Assembly: GCA_944326475.1 (NCBI GenBank)
Contig: CALVEC010000007.1
Coordinates: 62,001-126,000 of the forward strand
Direction: 5' to 3'
Length of the DNA: 64,000 bases
Origin: Candidatus Gastranaerophilales bacterium
GTDB taxonomy: Bacteria > Cyanobacteriota > Vampirovibrionia > Gastranaerophilales > Gastranaerophilaceae
Translations under genes and position numbers: made by a program
Shown: piece after piece, positions 3,119 through 64,000 of the stretch
Layout: each line of letters begins with the position of its first letter
Position numbering within the stretch: the first letter of the stretch is position 1
Notes under the pieces: model-generated
What the model was told of the DNA's origin: nothing
Databases searched by the model: none
What the model saw: the letters and a program-made list of their open reading frames with translations, nothing else

Positions 3119-4501
3119 TTATCCTTTGTTAAGTTTGTTGGTAATCTCAGACACCACTTGTGAAAGAAGATTGTTCGTAGCAAGTTCGTCTTTTACTTTG
3201 TCATATGAGTACATAATCGTCGTATGTTTTTTGTCAAAATAATCGCCAATCGCAGGAAAACTCTGTTTCGTTAAATCCCTTGAAAGGTATATCGCCATTT
3301 GACGCGCTTCGGCAATTTTTTGCGACCTGCTGGAGCCTTTTATTTCTTTAACGGGAACATTGTAGTAACGTGCTATTTCTTCCACAATTGCGTCAAAAGT
3401 AATCTCTTTTTTGTGTTCGCTGTATCCGATAATCTTTTTTACATTCTCCAATGTAAGCTCGACTTCATTTATGCTTGCATAAGCTGTTACCCTGTTAAAC
3501 GCTCCTTCCAATTCTCTAATGTTATTGGAATAAACAGTAGCAAGAAATTCTATAATATTCTGAGGAACTTTTATTTCTGAAGTTTGGGCAAGATTAACCA
3601 GAATTGCCATTCTTGTTTCAACATCCGGCACCTGTATATCAGCCATAAGACCCCATTCAAAACGACTGATTAACCTATCGGAGATAGAAGGAATTTCTTT
3701 GGGCGTTCTGTCGCTTGTAATAACTATCTGTTTTCCGGCACTATGAAGCGTGTTAAATGTATTAAATACTTCTTCTTCCGTTCTTGTCTTGCCGGCGATA
3801 AACTGAATATCATCAATCAGCAAAACATCAGTCTCTCTGTATGTATTGCGGAATTTTTTCATTTTATTTGCTGTATCTCCGCCGCAAGCAAGTGCATTTA
3901 CGACATCATTAACAAATTCTTCCGCCTGAACAAATTTTACTTTTAACTCCGGTTTATTTTTTATTATATAATGCCCAATAGCCTGCATTATATGCGTTTT
4001 TCCAAGCCCCGGTCCACCGTAGATATAGAGAGGATTATATTTTTTTCCGGGATTTTCGGCAACGGTTTTTGCAGCAACAAAAGCCAGTTTGTTGTTAGAA
4101 CCGACGACAAAATTTTCAAATTTGTATTTCAAGTTCAAATTTGATGACTGCATCTGAGTAAGGCTATCATAGTTCAATCTTTGTATAGGCTGAGAGTCTT
4201 CTTTTTTTGCTCTGTTGTTCGCCTTTTTTTGAAATTTTTTTGCAAGTTCTTCGTCAAATATTATTTTTATCTCAAGGTTTTTCCCCGTAACTTTTTTTAT
4301 TGCATCAACAATTTCTCCATGATGATTTTTTCTGAGCATGCTCGGAGCAAAAGCCTGCCCTGTATGAACAACAAAGCTGTTTTCATCAAAATACTGAGGA
4401 ACTAAAGGTATTATCCATGTTGAAAATGTCGAATCAGGAATTTCGTTTTCCAAAATTCCTAAAATTTCATTCCACACTTCGACGATATTTTCTTGACTCA
4501 T
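3119..4501 (-). CDS. dnaA: Chromosomal replication initiator DnaA
   Basis: AAA+ ATPase that binds DnaA boxes and opens the origin. The 460 residues show the expected four domains: an N-terminal interaction domain (WNEILGILENEI), a short linker, the AAA+ core with Walker A GGPGLGKTH and Walker B LLIDDIQF, and a C-terminal helix-turn-helix with the signature EIKGSSRSQKIAEARQMA and KKHTTIMYSYDKV. It is not next to dnaN, which lies about 38 kb away at 42-43 kb. In many bacteria the two are adjacent, while in cyanobacteria they are separated. The gap on either side of dnaA lacks an obvious cluster of DnaA boxes, so the origin is probably elsewhere. Confidence 0.98.
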   Translation of the reverse strand: MSQENIVEVWNEILGILENEIPDSTFSTWIIPLVPQYFDENSFVVHTGQAFAPSMLRKNHHGEIVDAIKKVTGKNLEIKIIFDEELAKKFQKKANNRAKKEDSQPIQRLNYDSLTQMQSSNLNLKYKFENFVVGSNNKLAFVAAKTVAENPGKKYNPLYIYGGPGLGKTHIMQAIGHYIIKNKPELKVKFVQAEEFVNDVVNALACGGDTANKMKKFRNTYRETDVLLIDDIQFIAGKTRTEEEVFNTFNTLHSAGKQIVITSDRTPKEIPSISDRLISRFEWGLMADIQVPDVETRMAILVNLAQTSEIKVPQNIIEFLATVYSNNIRELEGAFNRVTAYASINEVELTLENVKKIIGYSEHKKEITFDAIVEEIARYYNVPVKEIKGSSRSQKIAEARQMAIYLSRDLTKQSFPAIGDYFDKKHTTIMYSYDKVKDELATNNLLSQVVSEITNKLNKG

Positions 4502-21647: not shown

Positions 21648-23231
21648 ATGACAATCGGTTCTTCTTTTAGTATTGCACAACAAGCATTACAAAACAGCCA
21701 ATATGCACTGAATATCGTAAGTAACAACATTGCCAACATGAATACGGAAGGGTATTCAAAACAAAGTGCTGTTTTTACAGCCCTTCACGGCTATTCTTGC
21801 TACAACTGGTGTTCAAGCGGAAATAATCTAAAACTCGGACATGGTGCTGAATTATCCTCTATTTCAAGAAACCGGGACCAGGCGCTCGACAACTATTTCA
21901 GAGACCAGAACGGCGATGCCGGTTTTTATAATCAAATCGGTTCTATGGCGAGTAATATTGGCAATATAATGAATGAAATGCAAGCCTCTGGCGGGTTACA
22001 GAGTGCGTTTTCAGATTTTTTCTCTGTTGTTGCAAAACTAAACGGTGACCCGACTAACAACGCATACAGAATAAGCTTTGTACAAGAAGCAATTGATATT
22101 GCAAACCAGTTTAATCAGATGGCTAATCAGTTAATCAATGCAAGAAACGAAAGCCTCGGTGAACTCGGTGACTTGAATAGCTTCCAAAATTCAAAAGCCT
22201 ATTTAACAATGGAAGAATTAAATACAAAATTTGAACAGCTCGCAGAAATAAACGGTCAAATTGCAAAGTCCTCCTCTGAAACCGGTGAAAATGCATCATT
22301 GCTGGACAAAAAAGATTTGCTTCTTGACGAAATCTCCGGCATGATTCCTGTCACAATTACCCAGAACGACAACGGCACATCAAATATCTACCTCGGAAAT
22401 ATAAACATAATTCAAGGCGGAGATATGAAAATGCGCTTTACTGCAACTCAGGGAACCTCCTACGATGAGCCGGTTATTTTTGGTATAGAAAACGCAGACG
22501 GAACTGTTTTTGACTCGAATATAAATGATTTGCTGACTTCCGGGACACTTGCTGCAGTGGGAGAAACAAGTTCAAATGTAACTCTTTCATACACAAGTGT
22601 TTTAAACGATTTAAACACTTTGGCAAGAGCCTTTGCAGAGGCAGTTAACGAAATACAAACCCAGACCTTTACGGGCGAAGACGGTCTTGAATACACACCT
22701 ATGGCGCTTCAAAACGGACAACTTACCCCGGCAACAGAGCCTATATTTGAAATTCCGACACCTGCAGGTACTGATTTTACGGCAGCCAATATCAAAGTAA
22801 ATCAGGCAGTAATTGATGACCCCTCTCACATTGCAGCAGCAGCCGTAAATATAGACCCGAATGCAAACCCGCCGGGATACGATGCAGATGGTATCGGCAA
22901 TAACCTGAACTCTCAGAGGCTGTTAGACTTACAGTCACAAAAACTGGATTTGTTAGATAAAGCCGGCACGGGTATCGGTGCAACACTTGAAGATTTTCTT
23001 GGCAGCATGATTACCGATATCGGCACAAAAATCAGTGATATAAATGACAAAATAGAAACGCAGGGTGACGTTGTTGACCAGATTTCATCACAGCGTTCTT
23101 CTTTGTTCGGTGTGAATCTGGATGAAGAACTTGCCGATTTAATTAAATACCAGAGAGCTTATGAAGCGGCAGCGAGAGTTTTCAACGTTGCATCACAGAT
23201 TATGCAAATGATGACAACTTTAGGTCAATAA
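21648..23231 (+). CDS. flgK: Flagellar hook-associated protein 1, FlgK
   Basis: A 527-residue hook-filament junction protein. Residues 1-40 carry SFSIAQQALQNSQYALN and VVSNNIANMNTEGYSKQ-type sequence, the rod/hook/HAP D0 signature. The region near 100 has NIMNEMQASGGLQSAFSDFF, and the C-terminus has GVNLDEELADLIKYQRAYEA and ARVFNVASQIMQMM, both diagnostic of FlgK. The middle 250 residues form the variable outer domains. Exported by the flagellar system with FlgN. Confidence 0.95.
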   Translation: MTIGSSFSIAQQALQNSQYALNIVSNNIANMNTEGYSKQSAVFTALHGYSCYNWCSSGNNLKLGHGAELSSISRNRDQALDNYFRDQNGDAGFYNQIGSMASNIGNIMNEMQASGGLQSAFSDFFSVVAKLNGDPTNNAYRISFVQEAIDIANQFNQMANQLINARNESLGELGDLNSFQNSKAYLTMEELNTKFEQLAEINGQIAKSSSETGENASLLDKKDLLLDEISGMIPVTITQNDNGTSNIYLGNINIIQGGDMKMRFTATQGTSYDEPVIFGIENADGTVFDSNINDLLTSGTLAAVGETSSNVTLSYTSVLNDLNTLARAFAEAVNEIQTQTFTGEDGLEYTPMALQNGQLTPATEPIFEIPTPAGTDFTAANIKVNQAVIDDPSHIAAAAVNIDPNANPPGYDADGIGNNLNSQRLLDLQSQKLDLLDKAGTGIGATLEDFLGSMITDIGTKISDINDKIETQGDVVDQISSQRSSLFGVNLDEELADLIKYQRAYEAAARVFNVASQIMQMMTTLGQ

Positions 23232-42058: not shown

Positions 42059-43180
42059 TTATCTAATCTGTATCGGCATAATCAGACACAAATAATCTTC
42101 TTCACTATCAGGTCTGAACAACGTAGCGGAAAGACTTCCGCCCAAACCAATTTTTATCTTATCTGATTCCATTATTTTTAAAGAATCTAATACATATCTG
42201 TAATTAAAAGCTATTGTCAATTCTTCATCTGTGTATTCTACAGAAATAGAATCTTCACCGAGACCTGCGTCCGGTGTATCTGCTTTTAAAAACAGAGTGT
42301 TTTCTCCAAAAATAAATTTAACAATATTTGTTCTTTCATTAACCATGACAGCAACACGTTCCAAGGCGTTTATCATTTCTTCTCTCGATACGACCGCATT
42401 TTTTTCACATGTCTGAGGTATTAACTGTTTATAAGGAGGATATTCACCTTCCAGAAGTCTTGAAGACATGATTAAGTTGGAAGTTTTAAAAGTAATTTTG
42501 GTTTTTTCAATAAATAAAGAAACTTTTTCCTCACCCAGATAAGGTGCAATTCTCAAAAATTCCTGAAGTGTTTTTGACGGAATGACACAGCTTATATCTG
42601 TTTCTTTTCCATTTTCTATTTTTTCAATAATCCTGGTTAACCTGTTTCCGTCAGTAGCAGCCATCTCCAGTGCATCTTTTGAAATTGAACAAAAAACACC
42701 ACTTATAATATTTCTGTTTTCATAATTTGCGGCAGAAAAAGCTGTGTATTTTATGGATTTTATAAACGGATTAAGTTCAATATCAACAAATTCAATATCT
42801 TTTAAATCATCTTCTGTTATAACTTTAGGAAATTCATCTGCACTAATTCCTATCAATTCAAATTTTGAATTTCCACATGTAATATTCACAACATTTGTTG
42901 CTTCATTCAACGAAAAAAGAACAGGTTTGTTGCTCAATCTTGAAGCAATCTCTGATAATTTTTTAGCGGGAAGTGTAATTTTTCCCGGAGTTTGAACAGA
43001 AGCAACCGTATTTGATGAAATATTTATATCTAAATCGGTTGCACTGAATTTTATGTGATTGTTTTCATCTGCTTCTATTAAAATATTGGAAAGTACCGGT
43101 TGTATGCCTCTTGCAACAGTCGTTTTTTCTACAATTTTTAAATTTGTTGCCAATAATTCTTTTTCAATTGTGAATTCCAT
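42059..43180 (-). CDS. dnaN: DNA polymerase III beta clamp
   Basis: Sliding clamp of replication, 373 residues, three-domain. N-terminal MEFTIEKELLATNLKIVEK, KITLPAKKLSEIASRLS, and the C-terminal LIMPIQIR (a variant of the usual LxxPxR end) fit. GGAG lies six bases before ATG 43180. The 374 bases upstream form the candidate origin of replication. dnaA is about 38 kb away. Confidence 0.97.
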   Translation of the reverse strand: MEFTIEKELLATNLKIVEKTTVARGIQPVLSNILIEADENNHIKFSATDLDINISSNTVASVQTPGKITLPAKKLSEIASRLSNKPVLFSLNEATNVVNITCGNSKFELIGISADEFPKVITEDDLKDIEFVDIELNPFIKSIKYTAFSAANYENRNIISGVFCSISKDALEMAATDGNRLTRIIEKIENGKETDISCVIPSKTLQEFLRIAPYLGEEKVSLFIEKTKITFKTSNLIMSSRLLEGEYPPYKQLIPQTCEKNAVVSREEMINALERVAVMVNERTNIVKFIFGENTLFLKADTPDAGLGEDSISVEYTDEELTIAFNYRYVLDSLKIMESDKIKIGLGGSLSATLFRPDSEEDYLCLIMPIQIR

Positions 43181-43554
43181 TTTTTCTCCAAAAATTTTTT
43201 TGTTTTTGTAATTTATTTTTTTTCTGTTTGTTTTTATTTTTCTTTTTTATTTATTTAATATAAATATAATAATATATAAATTTAATAATATCTAATAAGA
43301 AAAGAAAAAACTGTATAAAACTATTATAAAGCAAATATATAATTGAAACAAAGTTGTTCAAAAAATTGTAAAAAATTCTGTCGAAAATTTGTTATTTTTT
43401 TTGTACAAAAATTTTTTTATTTTAATTTTTATTTTAAACAAAATTTTTGATAGTTTTTTTACAGACAAAAACAGCGTTTTCTACAGGTTTTGAACATAAA
43501 AATTTTGCATGTTATAACAAAAAAAAGTCATGGAAACATGCTCTGCACAAAAGT
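43181..43554. other. oriC: Candidate replication origin (oriC) upstream of dnaN
   Basis: A 374-base gap. The dnaN-proximal 140 bases are almost pure A/T and could be the unwinding element. Sites of form TTTTNNACA, close to the cyanobacterial DnaA box TTTTCCACA, lie on the + strand at 43399, 43432, 43455, 43477 and 43488 (spacings 33, 23, 22, 11) and on the - strand at 43355-43363 and 43367-43375. Best is TTTTCTACA at 43477-43485. Strand composition switches here: see findings. dnaN-adjacent origins are known from cyanobacteria. No experimental proof is visible in sequence. Confidence 0.6.
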
Positions 43555-43854
43555 TTAACAATTTTTAAAATCATTTGGTTTTTTGTTGTGAATCCATCTG
43601 GCAACTTCTTGTTGTTCAAAACTCAAAGCAAAATTGTACAAAGCTTGAATAAGATTTCTTCCCGATGGAGATTTTCCAATCAGCAAAAAATCACCGGCTT
43701 TGTTTTTTGCGATATAAATTTCTTTCTGTATTATTCTGTCGACATTATTTTTTGCCGGAGATTCTATTTTTGTTTTTAACCAAAAAAACAAAAGAGATAC
43801 CGGTTGTTTGTTTTTATTTTCTTTTAAAAAATCTGAAAATTCTTTTATAATCAT
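43555..43854 (-). CDS. Hypothetical protein near the origin
   Basis: A 99-residue protein whose start overlaps the end of the isochorismatase gene by one base, so it is probably the last gene of the leftward operon from 46464. It begins MIIKEFSDFLKENKNKQP, has VSLLFFWLKTKIESP (mildly hydrophobic, not a clear membrane helix), EIYIAKNKAGDFLLIGKSP, and QALYNFALSFEQQEVARW. Its stop lies at the edge of the candidate origin. I do not recognise the family. Confidence 0.6.
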   Translation of the reverse strand: MIIKEFSDFLKENKNKQPVSLLFFWLKTKIESPAKNNVDRIIQKEIYIAKNKAGDFLLIGKSPSGRNLIQALYNFALSFEQQEVARWIHNKKPNDFKNC

Positions 43855-46789: not shown

Positions 46790-47014
46790 GTGTTTTTTTG
46801 CAAAAGTTCATACTTTAGTTTGGAAATTTTCCAACTAAATAAGCATAAAGAAGCCATGAAAAAGTCCGTTATATAGGAATGTAAGAAAGAAAAGTCATCA
46901 TAAACTCAATAAATGTAAGGCTAAGCGAGTAGTAGGGTTTTGTATACCCTTACCCGTGCTGCATTTGAGAGTACAAGGAAGTACAGTAAAACATCTCATG
47001 AAAGGAGAACAACT
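46790..47014 (+). promoter_or_regulatory. Flagellin promoter and leader
   Basis: A 225-base region between the terminator and fliC. At 46814-46839 lies an inverted repeat with arms TTTAGTT(T)GGAAA and TTTCCAACTAAA (one bulged T), a candidate operator or RNA hairpin. GTAGGGT and TACCCTTAC about 46930-46955 can pair in the leader. I did not find a clear sigma-28 promoter (TAAA-N15-GCCGATAA). The AAAGGAGAA site precedes ATG 47015. Confidence 0.5.
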
Positions 47015-47890
47015 ATGCCTATTATTGTAAACACAAACATGTCAGCTATTAAGACACAAAGAAATTTAACCAATGCTACAAATGACTTGAACAAAGCTTT
47101 AAACAGAATGTCAACCGGTTTGAGGGTAAACTCCTCTGCTGATGATGCAGCAGGTATGTTTGTTGCATCTACTTTAGATACTCAAATTAGAGGTTCAAAA
47201 GTTGCACAAGATAACGTTGCAACCGGTATAAATGTACTACAAACTGTTGAAGGTGATATATCAGTAATTGAAGACAACCTTCTTCGTATAAGAGACTTGG
47301 CAACACAGGCAGCAAACGGAATCTATAGCGAAGAATCAATGCAGGCAATGCAAAACGAAGTTGATGCCCGTATTGAAGAAATTAACAGAATTGCAAACGC
47401 TTCAAACTTTAACGGATTAAATCTCTTGAACGGTAACGAAGCATTTAAAAACGGTTTGAGATTGCAAGTCGGAGCTAACTCAGAAAAAGAAACAAACTGT
47501 GTTGTTGTTCCCGCTGAAATATTTGCAAACGCAGAGGCTTCGTCTCTCGGGCTTATTGCCAAGAACGGTGCCCAATTCCAAACAACTGAAGAAGTCTTTA
47601 AAAGTGCTTCAAACGCAGCTTTATTTATTGCCGATGTTGACAAAGCCCTTACCAGTATGAATACACACAAAGCAACAATCGGTGCTATTCAAAACAGACT
47701 TGAATCAGCAAACGATTCGCTGACTACAATGATTGAGAATGCAACTGCTGCAAAATCAACAATTATGGATGCAGATATCGCAGAAGAAAGTGCTAACTAT
47801 ACAAGAGCAACTATTCTTCAACAAACAGCATCAACGCTTCTTGTTCAGGCAAATTCACTGCCTCAAATAGCTTTAACTTTATTACAATAA
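47015..47890 (+). CDS. fliC: Flagellin
   Basis: 291 residues, the filament subunit. It begins MPIIVNTNMSAIKTQRNL. The N-terminal D0/D1 signature is NKALNRMSTGLRVNSSADDA, then AAGMFVASTLDTQIRG, VLQTVEGDISVIEDNLLRIR and ANASNFNGLNLLNG. The C-terminal block is AIQNRLESANDSLTTMIENA with MDADIAEESANYTR and QTASTLLVQANSLPQIALTLL. The central variable domain is very short, so the filament surface is minimal. Strong ribosome-binding site. A single monocistronic flagellin, far from the hook operon. Confidence 0.97.
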   Translation: MPIIVNTNMSAIKTQRNLTNATNDLNKALNRMSTGLRVNSSADDAAGMFVASTLDTQIRGSKVAQDNVATGINVLQTVEGDISVIEDNLLRIRDLATQAANGIYSEESMQAMQNEVDARIEEINRIANASNFNGLNLLNGNEAFKNGLRLQVGANSEKETNCVVVPAEIFANAEASSLGLIAKNGAQFQTTEEVFKSASNAALFIADVDKALTSMNTHKATIGAIQNRLESANDSLTTMIENATAAKSTIMDADIAEESANYTRATILQQTASTLLVQANSLPQIALTLLQ

Positions 47891-61890: not shown

Positions 61891-64000
61891 TTATTCTTCT
61901 TTACTGAAAATTAAAGATAGCTGCGGAACCTCCGGCTGTATTGTTTTTTGTTTTCGTTTGTTTGCAGAGAGGTCTTTTGAGTAATCAACCTGCATTTTTG
62001 TCATTAATTCTTCCGCTTTTTTTACAACAGACTGCGGCAAACCTGCCATTTTTGCTACCTGTATACCATAGCTTTTGCTTGCGGAGCCTTCAACTACCTT
62101 TCTCAAGAAAATAATTTCTCCGTCGTTTTCAGAAATCGTAACACGGTAGTTTTTAATTTGAGGAAACATTGAACTCATTACGTTAAGTTCATGGTAGTGG
62201 GTTGCAAATATTGTTCTGGCCTTGATTTTTTCGGCAATATATTCCGCAACGCTCCACGCAATGGCAACACCATCATAAGTGCTTGTGCCTCTGCCTATTT
62301 CATCCAGCAAAATCAAGCTTTTTTCGGTTGCAGAGTTTAGGATATAAGATGTTTCATTCATTTCTACCATAAATGTAGATTGTCCCAATGACAAATCGTC
62401 TACAGCACCGACTCTTGTGAAAATCTTGTCGACAACACCGATTTGTGCATAGTCGCAGGGTACGTAGCTTCCCATCTGCGCCATAATAACAATAAGTGCA
62501 TTTTGGCGCATATATGTGGATTTTCCTGCCATATTCGGTCCGGTTAAAATCATAAACTGAGGATATTTCGGATTATTATTGCTGCCGATTAAAATTAAAT
62601 CATTTGAGACATATTGCCCCATAGGCAGGATTTTTTCAAGTACCGGGTGTCTGCCTTCTTTTATATTTAGTTCGCAAGAATCTTTTATTTCCGGTTTTAC
62701 GTATTTATTTTCTATTGCACAAACTGCAAAAGATACGAATACATCTAGAGTTGCCAGAGCTTCCGCAATTTTTCTGATTGCTTCAACAAATTCTTTTGAG
62801 TATTCTCTCAAGTCAGTGAATATTTTGTATTCAAGCTCTGTGGATTTTGATTGTGCGGAGAGAACTTCTGATTCGTGTCTTTTTAATGATTCTGTGACAA
62901 ATCTTTCACCGGTAGTCAGTGTCTGGCGTCTTATGTAATTATCCGGAACCATTGAAAGATTAGAGTTTGCAACCTCTATATAATATCCGAATGTTTTACT
63001 GAAACCGACTTTTAGAAATTTTATACCGGTTTTAGCTTTTTGTTTTGCTTCAAAATCAGCAAGCCAGCTTTTTCCGCCGTTTAACAAATCTCTGTAGTGG
63101 TCAAGATCTTCTGAGACACCGGGCTTTATTATGTTGCCTTCTTTTATTGTTATCGGAGCATCTTCACTTATTGTTCTGTTTATTATGTCGGCAAAATCCA
63201 GTAAGGATTTGTTGTTTTCGCGAATTGGCTGGAGACTTTGTGTTTTGAAAGATTTAAGTACTTTACTGAACTCCGGCAAAAGATTTATCGTGTCTCTCAG
63301 GGCAAGAAAGTCTCTCGGGGTTGCACTGTTGTTGCTCAATTTAGTTGAAAGTCTTTGTATGTCATAGACCTGTTCTAAAAGACGTATCAAAGTCAATCTC
63401 GAAGTAGTATTGTCTATAAGTTCTGCAACTGTATTTTGGCGTTCTATTATACAGTCTATACTTTTTAACGGCTGATGAATCCATTTTTTGAGTAATCTGG
63501 CTCCCATATTTGTTTTTGTTCTGTCTATTGCCCAGAGTAAGCTGCCGTATTTTTGTTTGTCACGGGAGGTTTCTGTCAATTCAAGATTTCGTCTTGTGTT
63601 GCTGTCCATAGACACAAATTCTGAGATTTCGTATGTTTCTATAGATTCAAATTTAGGCAAATTGTCTTTCTGGGTTTTGAATAAATAGTCAATTATTGCT
63701 CCTGCTGCGGAAAAACCGATTTTGCAGTTTTCAAAACCAAATGCGTCCAGTGATTTTACTTTAAAAACTTGTTTTAAATTATCTTCTGCTCTGTTTATGT
63801 CAAAAGAATTGTAAGACATTTTAGAACAGTTATAATTCTTTGTTATTTCATCAGGTAAATCAACTTTTTCATCCGGTACAATTTGAAAAGGCAAAACTTT
63901 TTGAGAGAGTTTGGGTACAACTATTTCTGCAGGTTTTATTCTTGCAAGTTCGCTTAATAATTGGCTGAATGTTGTTTGAGTTGTTTTAAATTCTCCGGTT
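61891..64000 (-). CDS. mutS: DNA mismatch repair protein MutS, N-terminus cut by window edge
   Basis: The coding frame is open from the right edge (base 64000) to 61891, about 702 residues; roughly the first 150 residues, including the mismatch-reading domain I, are outside. At the edge is TGEFKTTQTTFSQLLSEL then ARIKPAEIVVP, domain II. The core has MDSNTRRNLELTET, the clamp, then Walker A TGPNMAGKSTYMRQ, SLILLDEIGRGTSTYDGVA and TIFATHYHELN. The C-terminal tail ends in VPQLSLIFSKEE. It recognises mismatches and recruits MutL. An internal TTG is not the start. Confidence 0.97.
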   Translation of the reverse strand, partial: TGEFKTTQTTFSQLLSELARIKPAEIVVPKLSQKVLPFQIVPDEKVDLPDEITKNYNCSKMSYNSFDINRAEDNLKQVFKVKSLDAFGFENCKIGFSAAGAIIDYLFKTQKDNLPKFESIETYEISEFVSMDSNTRRNLELTETSRDKQKYGSLLWAIDRTKTNMGARLLKKWIHQPLKSIDCIIERQNTVAELIDNTTSRLTLIRLLEQVYDIQRLSTKLSNNSATPRDFLALRDTINLLPEFSKVLKSFKTQSLQPIRENNKSLLDFADIINRTISEDAPITIKEGNIIKPGVSEDLDHYRDLLNGGKSWLADFEAKQKAKTGIKFLKVGFSKTFGYYIEVANSNLSMVPDNYIRRQTLTTGERFVTESLKRHESEVLSAQSKSTELEYKIFTDLREYSKEFVEAIRKIAEALATLDVFVSFAVCAIENKYVKPEIKDSCELNIKEGRHPVLEKILPMGQYVSNDLILIGSNNNPKYPQFMILTGPNMAGKSTYMRQNALIVIMAQMGSYVPCDYAQIGVVDKIFTRVGAVDDLSLGQSTFMVEMNETSYILNSATEKSLILLDEIGRGTSTYDGVAIAWSVAEYIAEKIKARTIFATHYHELNVMSSMFPQIKNYRVTISENDGEIIFLRKVVEGSASKSYGIQVAKMAGLPQSVVKKAEELMTKMQVDYSKDLSANKRKQKTIQPEVPQLSLIFSKEE

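Follow-up and report, generated by a model that had tools for sequence, protein, structure and literature searches.

Is the intergenic segment upstream of dnaN in a Gastranaerophilales bacterium the site at which chromosome replication starts, and if so, which sequence does its DnaA initiator recognize there? The window, i.e., the whole stretch of 64,000 nucleotides that was analyzed, corresponds to positions 62001-126000 of a contig of 129,461 bp and belongs to a genome of 2.14 Mb in 35 contigs that is 98.65% complete. Compared by DnaN, its nearest named records are MAGs of Candidatus Gastranaerophilales (94% identity). The Gastranaerophilales are an order within Candidatus Melainabacteria, and the class is here called Vampirovibrionia. 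Families of the same class are numbered here from f1, the window's own, to f9.

Features of the region

The genes and sites to which the text refers are the following, with the basis of each assignment in parentheses.

3119..4501, minus strand: dnaA (the genome's only DnaA ATPase family hit), Lys at the position of Asp433, turn one residue shorter
42059..43180, minus strand: dnaN, DNA polymerase III beta clamp (Pfam PF00712/PF02767/PF02768)
43181..43554, no strand: predicted oriC, intergenic, box arrays and putative AT-rich unwinding region (unique cluster, skew switch, conservation)
43283..43290, minus strand: TATTATTA, putative DnaA-trio-like element in the AT-rich stretch beyond the last box (invariant; trio consensus from PMC8235120)
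43312..43320, minus strand: box TTTTATACA, last one toward dnaN, a little downstream of the conserved TATAAT (TTTT and ACA invariant, 20 relatives)
43323..43328, minus strand: TATAAT, conserved and resembling a -10 element, in the probable promoter of dnaN (alignment of relatives)
43355..43363, minus strand: box TTTTGAACA (GA and ACA invariant, 20 relatives)
43367..43375, minus strand: box-like TTTTTTACA, 5' half poorly conserved (alignment of relatives)
43379..43387, minus strand: box TTTTCGACA, mostly TTTTCTACA in relatives (alignment of relatives)
43399..43407, plus strand: box-like TTTTGTACA, unconserved, overlapped by its opposite-strand neighbor (alignment of relatives)
43402..43410, minus strand: box-like TTTTGTACA, unconserved (alignment of relatives)
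43432..43440, plus strand: box-like TTTTAAACA, weakly conserved (alignment of relatives)
43455..43463, plus strand: box-like TTTTTTACA, weakly conserved (alignment of relatives)
43477..43485, plus strand: box TTTTCTACA (TTTT..ACA invariant, 20 relatives)
43488..43496, plus strand: box TTTTGAACA (TTTT..ACA invariant or nearly so, 20 relatives)
43555..43854, minus strand: 99-aa ORF on the far side of the origin from dnaN (contains TTTTGAACA at 43613-43621)

The 99-aa ORF gave no match in a Pfam search. The additional TTTTGAACA copy inside it (43613-43621, minus strand) is found at about the same distance in almost every close relative and could be either a box or merely a set of conserved codons (FEQQ). 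Scanning the window for Rfam families and tRNAs gave no matches. Elsewhere in the window, a FlgK-like gene (21648-23231, plus strand) and a flagellin gene (46940-47890, plus strand) are present, so that the lineage appears to retain flagellar parts. A MutS-family gene at 61891-63894 (minus strand) matched MutS domains II to V, with domain I unmatched at the default cut-off; this ORF may have been called with a truncated start.

A unique cluster of phased boxes upstream of dnaN

Ten TTTTNNACA sites were found at 43312-43496 upstream of dnaN, spanning 185 bp of a region with a GC content of about 17%. An earlier note on this DNA had counted seven sites; the cluster is there, the number is larger. 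The spacings given there for the starts of the plus-strand boxes, 33, 23, 22, and 11 bp, are exact, and the statement that most boxes lie on one helix face agrees with the common 11-bp phase of the centers of all ten boxes (R=0.88); for the plus-strand boxes alone, R reaches up to 0.99 (P=0.002). At positions 5 and 6 the boxes of the window read CT, GA, TT, AT, AA, GT, or CG.

When 1.82 Mb, representing 85% of the genome, was scanned for a stronger cluster, the runner-up had 4 TTTTNNACA sites per 300 bp, compared to 10 here. No boxes were found upstream of dnaA itself. Canonical TTWTNCACA sites are absent from 43181-43554 and never exceed two per 300 bp in the same 85% of the genome, and a reading of the boxes as such sites was hence rejected. 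The origin region also contains no copy of TTTTCCACA.

The strand-composition switch

Along the 129-kb contig, cumulative GC skew reaches its minimum at 43-48 kb of the window and rises afterwards. The split with the best fit is placed some 6 kb rightward of the boxes; given the flat course over 43-48 kb, the method does not resolve the two positions. Among the contigs long enough to test within the 85% of the genome that was scanned, this one has the largest minimum-type GC-skew switch with flanks of both 20 kb and 40 kb.

Replication and coding effects were separated using the third codon positions of long ORFs. For leftward genes, the third-position GC skew of the plus strand changes from -0.03 on the left to +0.18 on the right (permutation P=0.005, with only six genes on the right side), and for rightward genes it changes from -0.14 to +0.07. 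The switch in plus-strand composition noted previously within leftward genes is thus present, and its attribution to replication is upheld by the flip in both gene directions. Of the skew minimum expected at about 43.3 kb, the GC part was observed; TA skew also flips at third positions, whereas plain TA skew mostly tracks gene direction. In 26 of the 27 relatives with flanking sequence, the dnaN side has the higher GC skew.

With the box cluster and the skew switch both located at dnaN, whose start is 38.7 kb from dnaA, the earlier placement of the origin 38 kb from dnaA is supported. In several large-genome members of f2 (L157, L159, L166-L169), unlike in the window's genome, dnaA directly adjoins dnaN. 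Judged from its sequence, the segment 43181-43554 is very likely the site at which this Gastranaerophilales bacterium begins to replicate its chromosome.

Conservation among relatives

Between 5 and 12 such sites are present upstream of dnaN in 44 of the 45 relatives identified through DnaN, the exception being L076. A wider sample of 39 family regions includes 33 with four or more boxes no further than 600 bp from dnaN. Among the six exceptional regions, L035 carries its cluster at -850 to -1002 and L016 has three boxes, and the remaining four showed no cluster over the stretch examined. Same-strand spacings in relatives deviate by at most 1 bp from a multiple of 11 in 55 of 74 cases, compared to 20 expected, and most relatives also preserve the orientation of the boxes.

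An alignment of 20 close relatives shows good conservation for about half of the ten sites of the window and not for the others. In the boxes that are kept best, TTTT and ACA vary little or not at all, and positions 5 and 6 vary. At orthologous sites these two positions switch between CT and GA, nearly always together, mixed CA and GT being rare; in both forms, G and A are adjacent on one strand. The two f5 regions inspected had no boxes near dnaN.

A probable DnaA box of altered sequence

Unbiased counts of 9-mers upstream of dnaN in 40 family regions ranked two sequences at the top, TTTTCTACA with 140 occurrences against 1.2 expected and TTTTGAACA with 46 against 1.3 expected; the first T of these boxes is often preceded by G. 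The predicted lineage-wide box consensus is TTTT(C/G)(T/A)ACA. The motif had previously been described as the cyanobacterial box TTTTCCACA with one or two bases changed, a description that these counts replace.

The difference is most evident at position 6, which is C in TTATCCACA and TTTTCCACA. In the window's family, C occupies this position in 7 of 272 sites, compared to 91 of 100 TTWTNNACA sites upstream of dnaN in 18 phylum outgroup genomes, where the sites with C6 are nearly all TTTTCCACA or TTATCCACA. Corresponding values are 1/19 sites for f2, 2/22 for f3, and 1/16 for f4. This comparison covers families f1-f4; alignment yielded no settled boxes for f5, f6, and f8. The lineage box enables the origin to be found in related genomes, in which searches with TTWTNCACA or TTTTCCACA would fail.

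In the AT-rich stretch beyond the last box on the dnaN side, TATTATTA is common to all 20 aligned relatives and fits the relaxed DnaA-trio consensus (PMC8235120). Genomes of f2 have a TTWTCTACA box that is followed, after a short spacer, by CTACTACTTCTA in most members. As CTACTACTTCTA is a predicted DnaA-trio run, its position after this box assigns the CT-type box to the origin by a criterion independent of the motif.

The recognition helix of DnaA

Asp433 is a DNA-contacting residue of DnaA (PMC7561715), reported to be conserved across bacterial classes and to contact bases; its role has been placed at box position 7, not 6 (PMC8235120). Residues were numbered by alignment on E. coli DnaA, which is unambiguous around the HTT motif. 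All examined phylum outgroup DnaAs possess Asp at this position (GGKDHTT or RDHTT types); of the 18 outgroup genomes of the box count, all but G140 were included in this examination, and Asp was confirmed in all 17.

In the window's DnaA, Lys replaces Asp433 and the turn before the recognition helix has one residue fewer, whereas Arg399, His434, and Thr435 are kept. Within the family, 40 of 49 proteins have Lys as residue 433; nine have Asn, Arg, Gln, or Thr instead, and the turn is nearly always one residue shorter (F-x-KKHTT). Elsewhere in the class, Lys is found in f2, f4, f7, and most of f3, two members of which have Gln or Thr; Arg is found in f9, Lys or Gln in f8, and Thr in f6. No Asp was observed at position 433 among the DnaAs sampled from the class (f1-f9). 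Domain IV of the f5 proteins (L370-L373) is strongly divergent and has RGNS, into which position 433 falls, instead of the HTT motif.

Interpretation and alternative explanations

We consider it highly probable that the locus is an oriC of the cyanobacterial type, linked to dnaN, in which the box and the recognition helix of DnaA have changed jointly. The initiator, whose gene lies 38.7 kb away, would bind two divergent arrays of TTTT(C/G)(T/A)ACA 9-mers in 11-bp steps and would open the AT-rich, trio-like stretch adjoining the last box on the dnaN side, with melting toward dnaN. Two forks would then depart, one leftward over dnaN and the other rightward over 44-64 kb, as at an ordinary DnaA-driven bidirectional origin. 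The box has lost its usual C6, and DnaA of the same class has lost Asp433, mostly in favor of Lys; a joint change would be the simplest account of both.

The most serious alternative, though an unlikely one, accepts the site as oriC and holds that DnaA specificity is unchanged, AT-biased mutation having turned CC into CT, GA, AT, and others, and DnaA being tolerant of the result. The genome is indeed AT-rich, and variation at positions 5 and 6 is seen among the boxes of the window itself. However, AT pressure cannot explain GA in place of CT with G kept, nor does it account for TTTTCTACA at more than 100 times expectation across 40 regions. CT boxes are also present in f2-f3 genomes with a GC content near 45-50%, and the AT-rich cyanobacteria G129 and G140 (upstream GC 0.33-0.35) retain mostly TTTTCCACA. 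The parallel loss of Asp433 also argues against unchanged specificity.

It is considerably less probable, indeed very improbable, that the repeats bind another regulator of dnaN and not DnaA, the origin being near by chance or located elsewhere. A conserved -10-like TATAAT adjoins the last box, which indicates that the array overlaps the dnaN promoter, but ten sites in 185 bp, arranged in divergent arrays with 11-bp steps, reproduce the layout of a cyanobacterial oriC; moreover, the skew minimum is located here, and the same motif precedes the DnaA-trio run in f2 genomes. The idea that the cluster arose by chance in a strongly AT-rich sequence, to which a GC content of about 17% might lend itself, has next to no probability and is refuted by the conservation of orthologous sites in relatives and by 5000 dinucleotide shuffles of the same 374-bp sequence (43181-43554), which gave a mean of 1.2 sites and a maximum of 7 and never reached the ten observed.

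As for the joint change of box and recognition helix, we favor, with some reservation, a scenario in which the initiator switched specificity near the base of the class (Melainabacteria/Vampirovibrionia), the loss of Asp433 and the change of positions 5-6 from CC to CT/GA occurring together. That the change at residue 433 caused the changed box preference is a hypothesis, and the published assignment of Asp433 to box position 7 counts against the proposal. The match between residue and box represents one event and its descendants, not many independent events, and descent cannot prove that either drove the other because both changed apparently once, near the class base. If this scenario is true, this would be a class of bacteria with origins outside the near-universal DnaA-box rule.

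The literature searched, which covered a minority of subscription papers, contained no account of a replication origin or a DnaA box in the Gastranaerophilales group. Locating an origin, here for an uncultured gut lineage, is in itself routine; as far as the literature searched shows, a class-wide paired change of initiator and box would not be.

Comparison with known systems

As in the oriC of Bacillus subtilis and Helicobacter pylori, the last box is followed by a short spacer and trio-like repeats, an arrangement that is clear in f2 and weaker in the window (TATTATTA). Unlike these origins, that of the window lacks both a GC cluster and a run of perfect GAT trios.

Thermotoga maritima DnaA likewise lacks Asp433, with Ser in its place, and aligns without gaps to the shortened turn (2z4r). 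The T. maritima box is ACCTACCAC (PMC10316083), which contains the CTAC core of TTTTCTACA; when the two are aligned on CTAC, an assumed register, T is found at position 6 here as well. The remainder of the box differs, and the lineages are unrelated. If the proposed switch is true, the loss of Asp433 and the CTAC core in T. maritima would be a second, independent case.

Close parallels are found in cyanobacteria, for which a link of oriC to dnaN and the box TTTTCCACA have been reported (PMC4674748). In Synechococcus elongatus PCC 7942, Anabaena PCC 7120, and Cyanothece ATCC 51142, oriC likewise lies directly upstream of dnaN, with divergent arrays of TTTT-type boxes about 150-340 bp upstream of the gene in steps of about 11 bp. 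Upstream of dnaN in G149, minus-strand boxes occupy about 337-251 bp and those of the plus strand about 232-159 bp, compared to 316-227 and 230-140 bp in the window. Box positions 5-6 are CT or GA in the window's lineage and CC in cyanobacteria, and the DnaA of the lineage differs from theirs by the absence of Asp433 and of one residue before the recognition helix. Because place and layout are the same but the box is different, the origin of the window represents a variant of the cyanobacterial type and not a member of it by the TTTTCCACA criterion.
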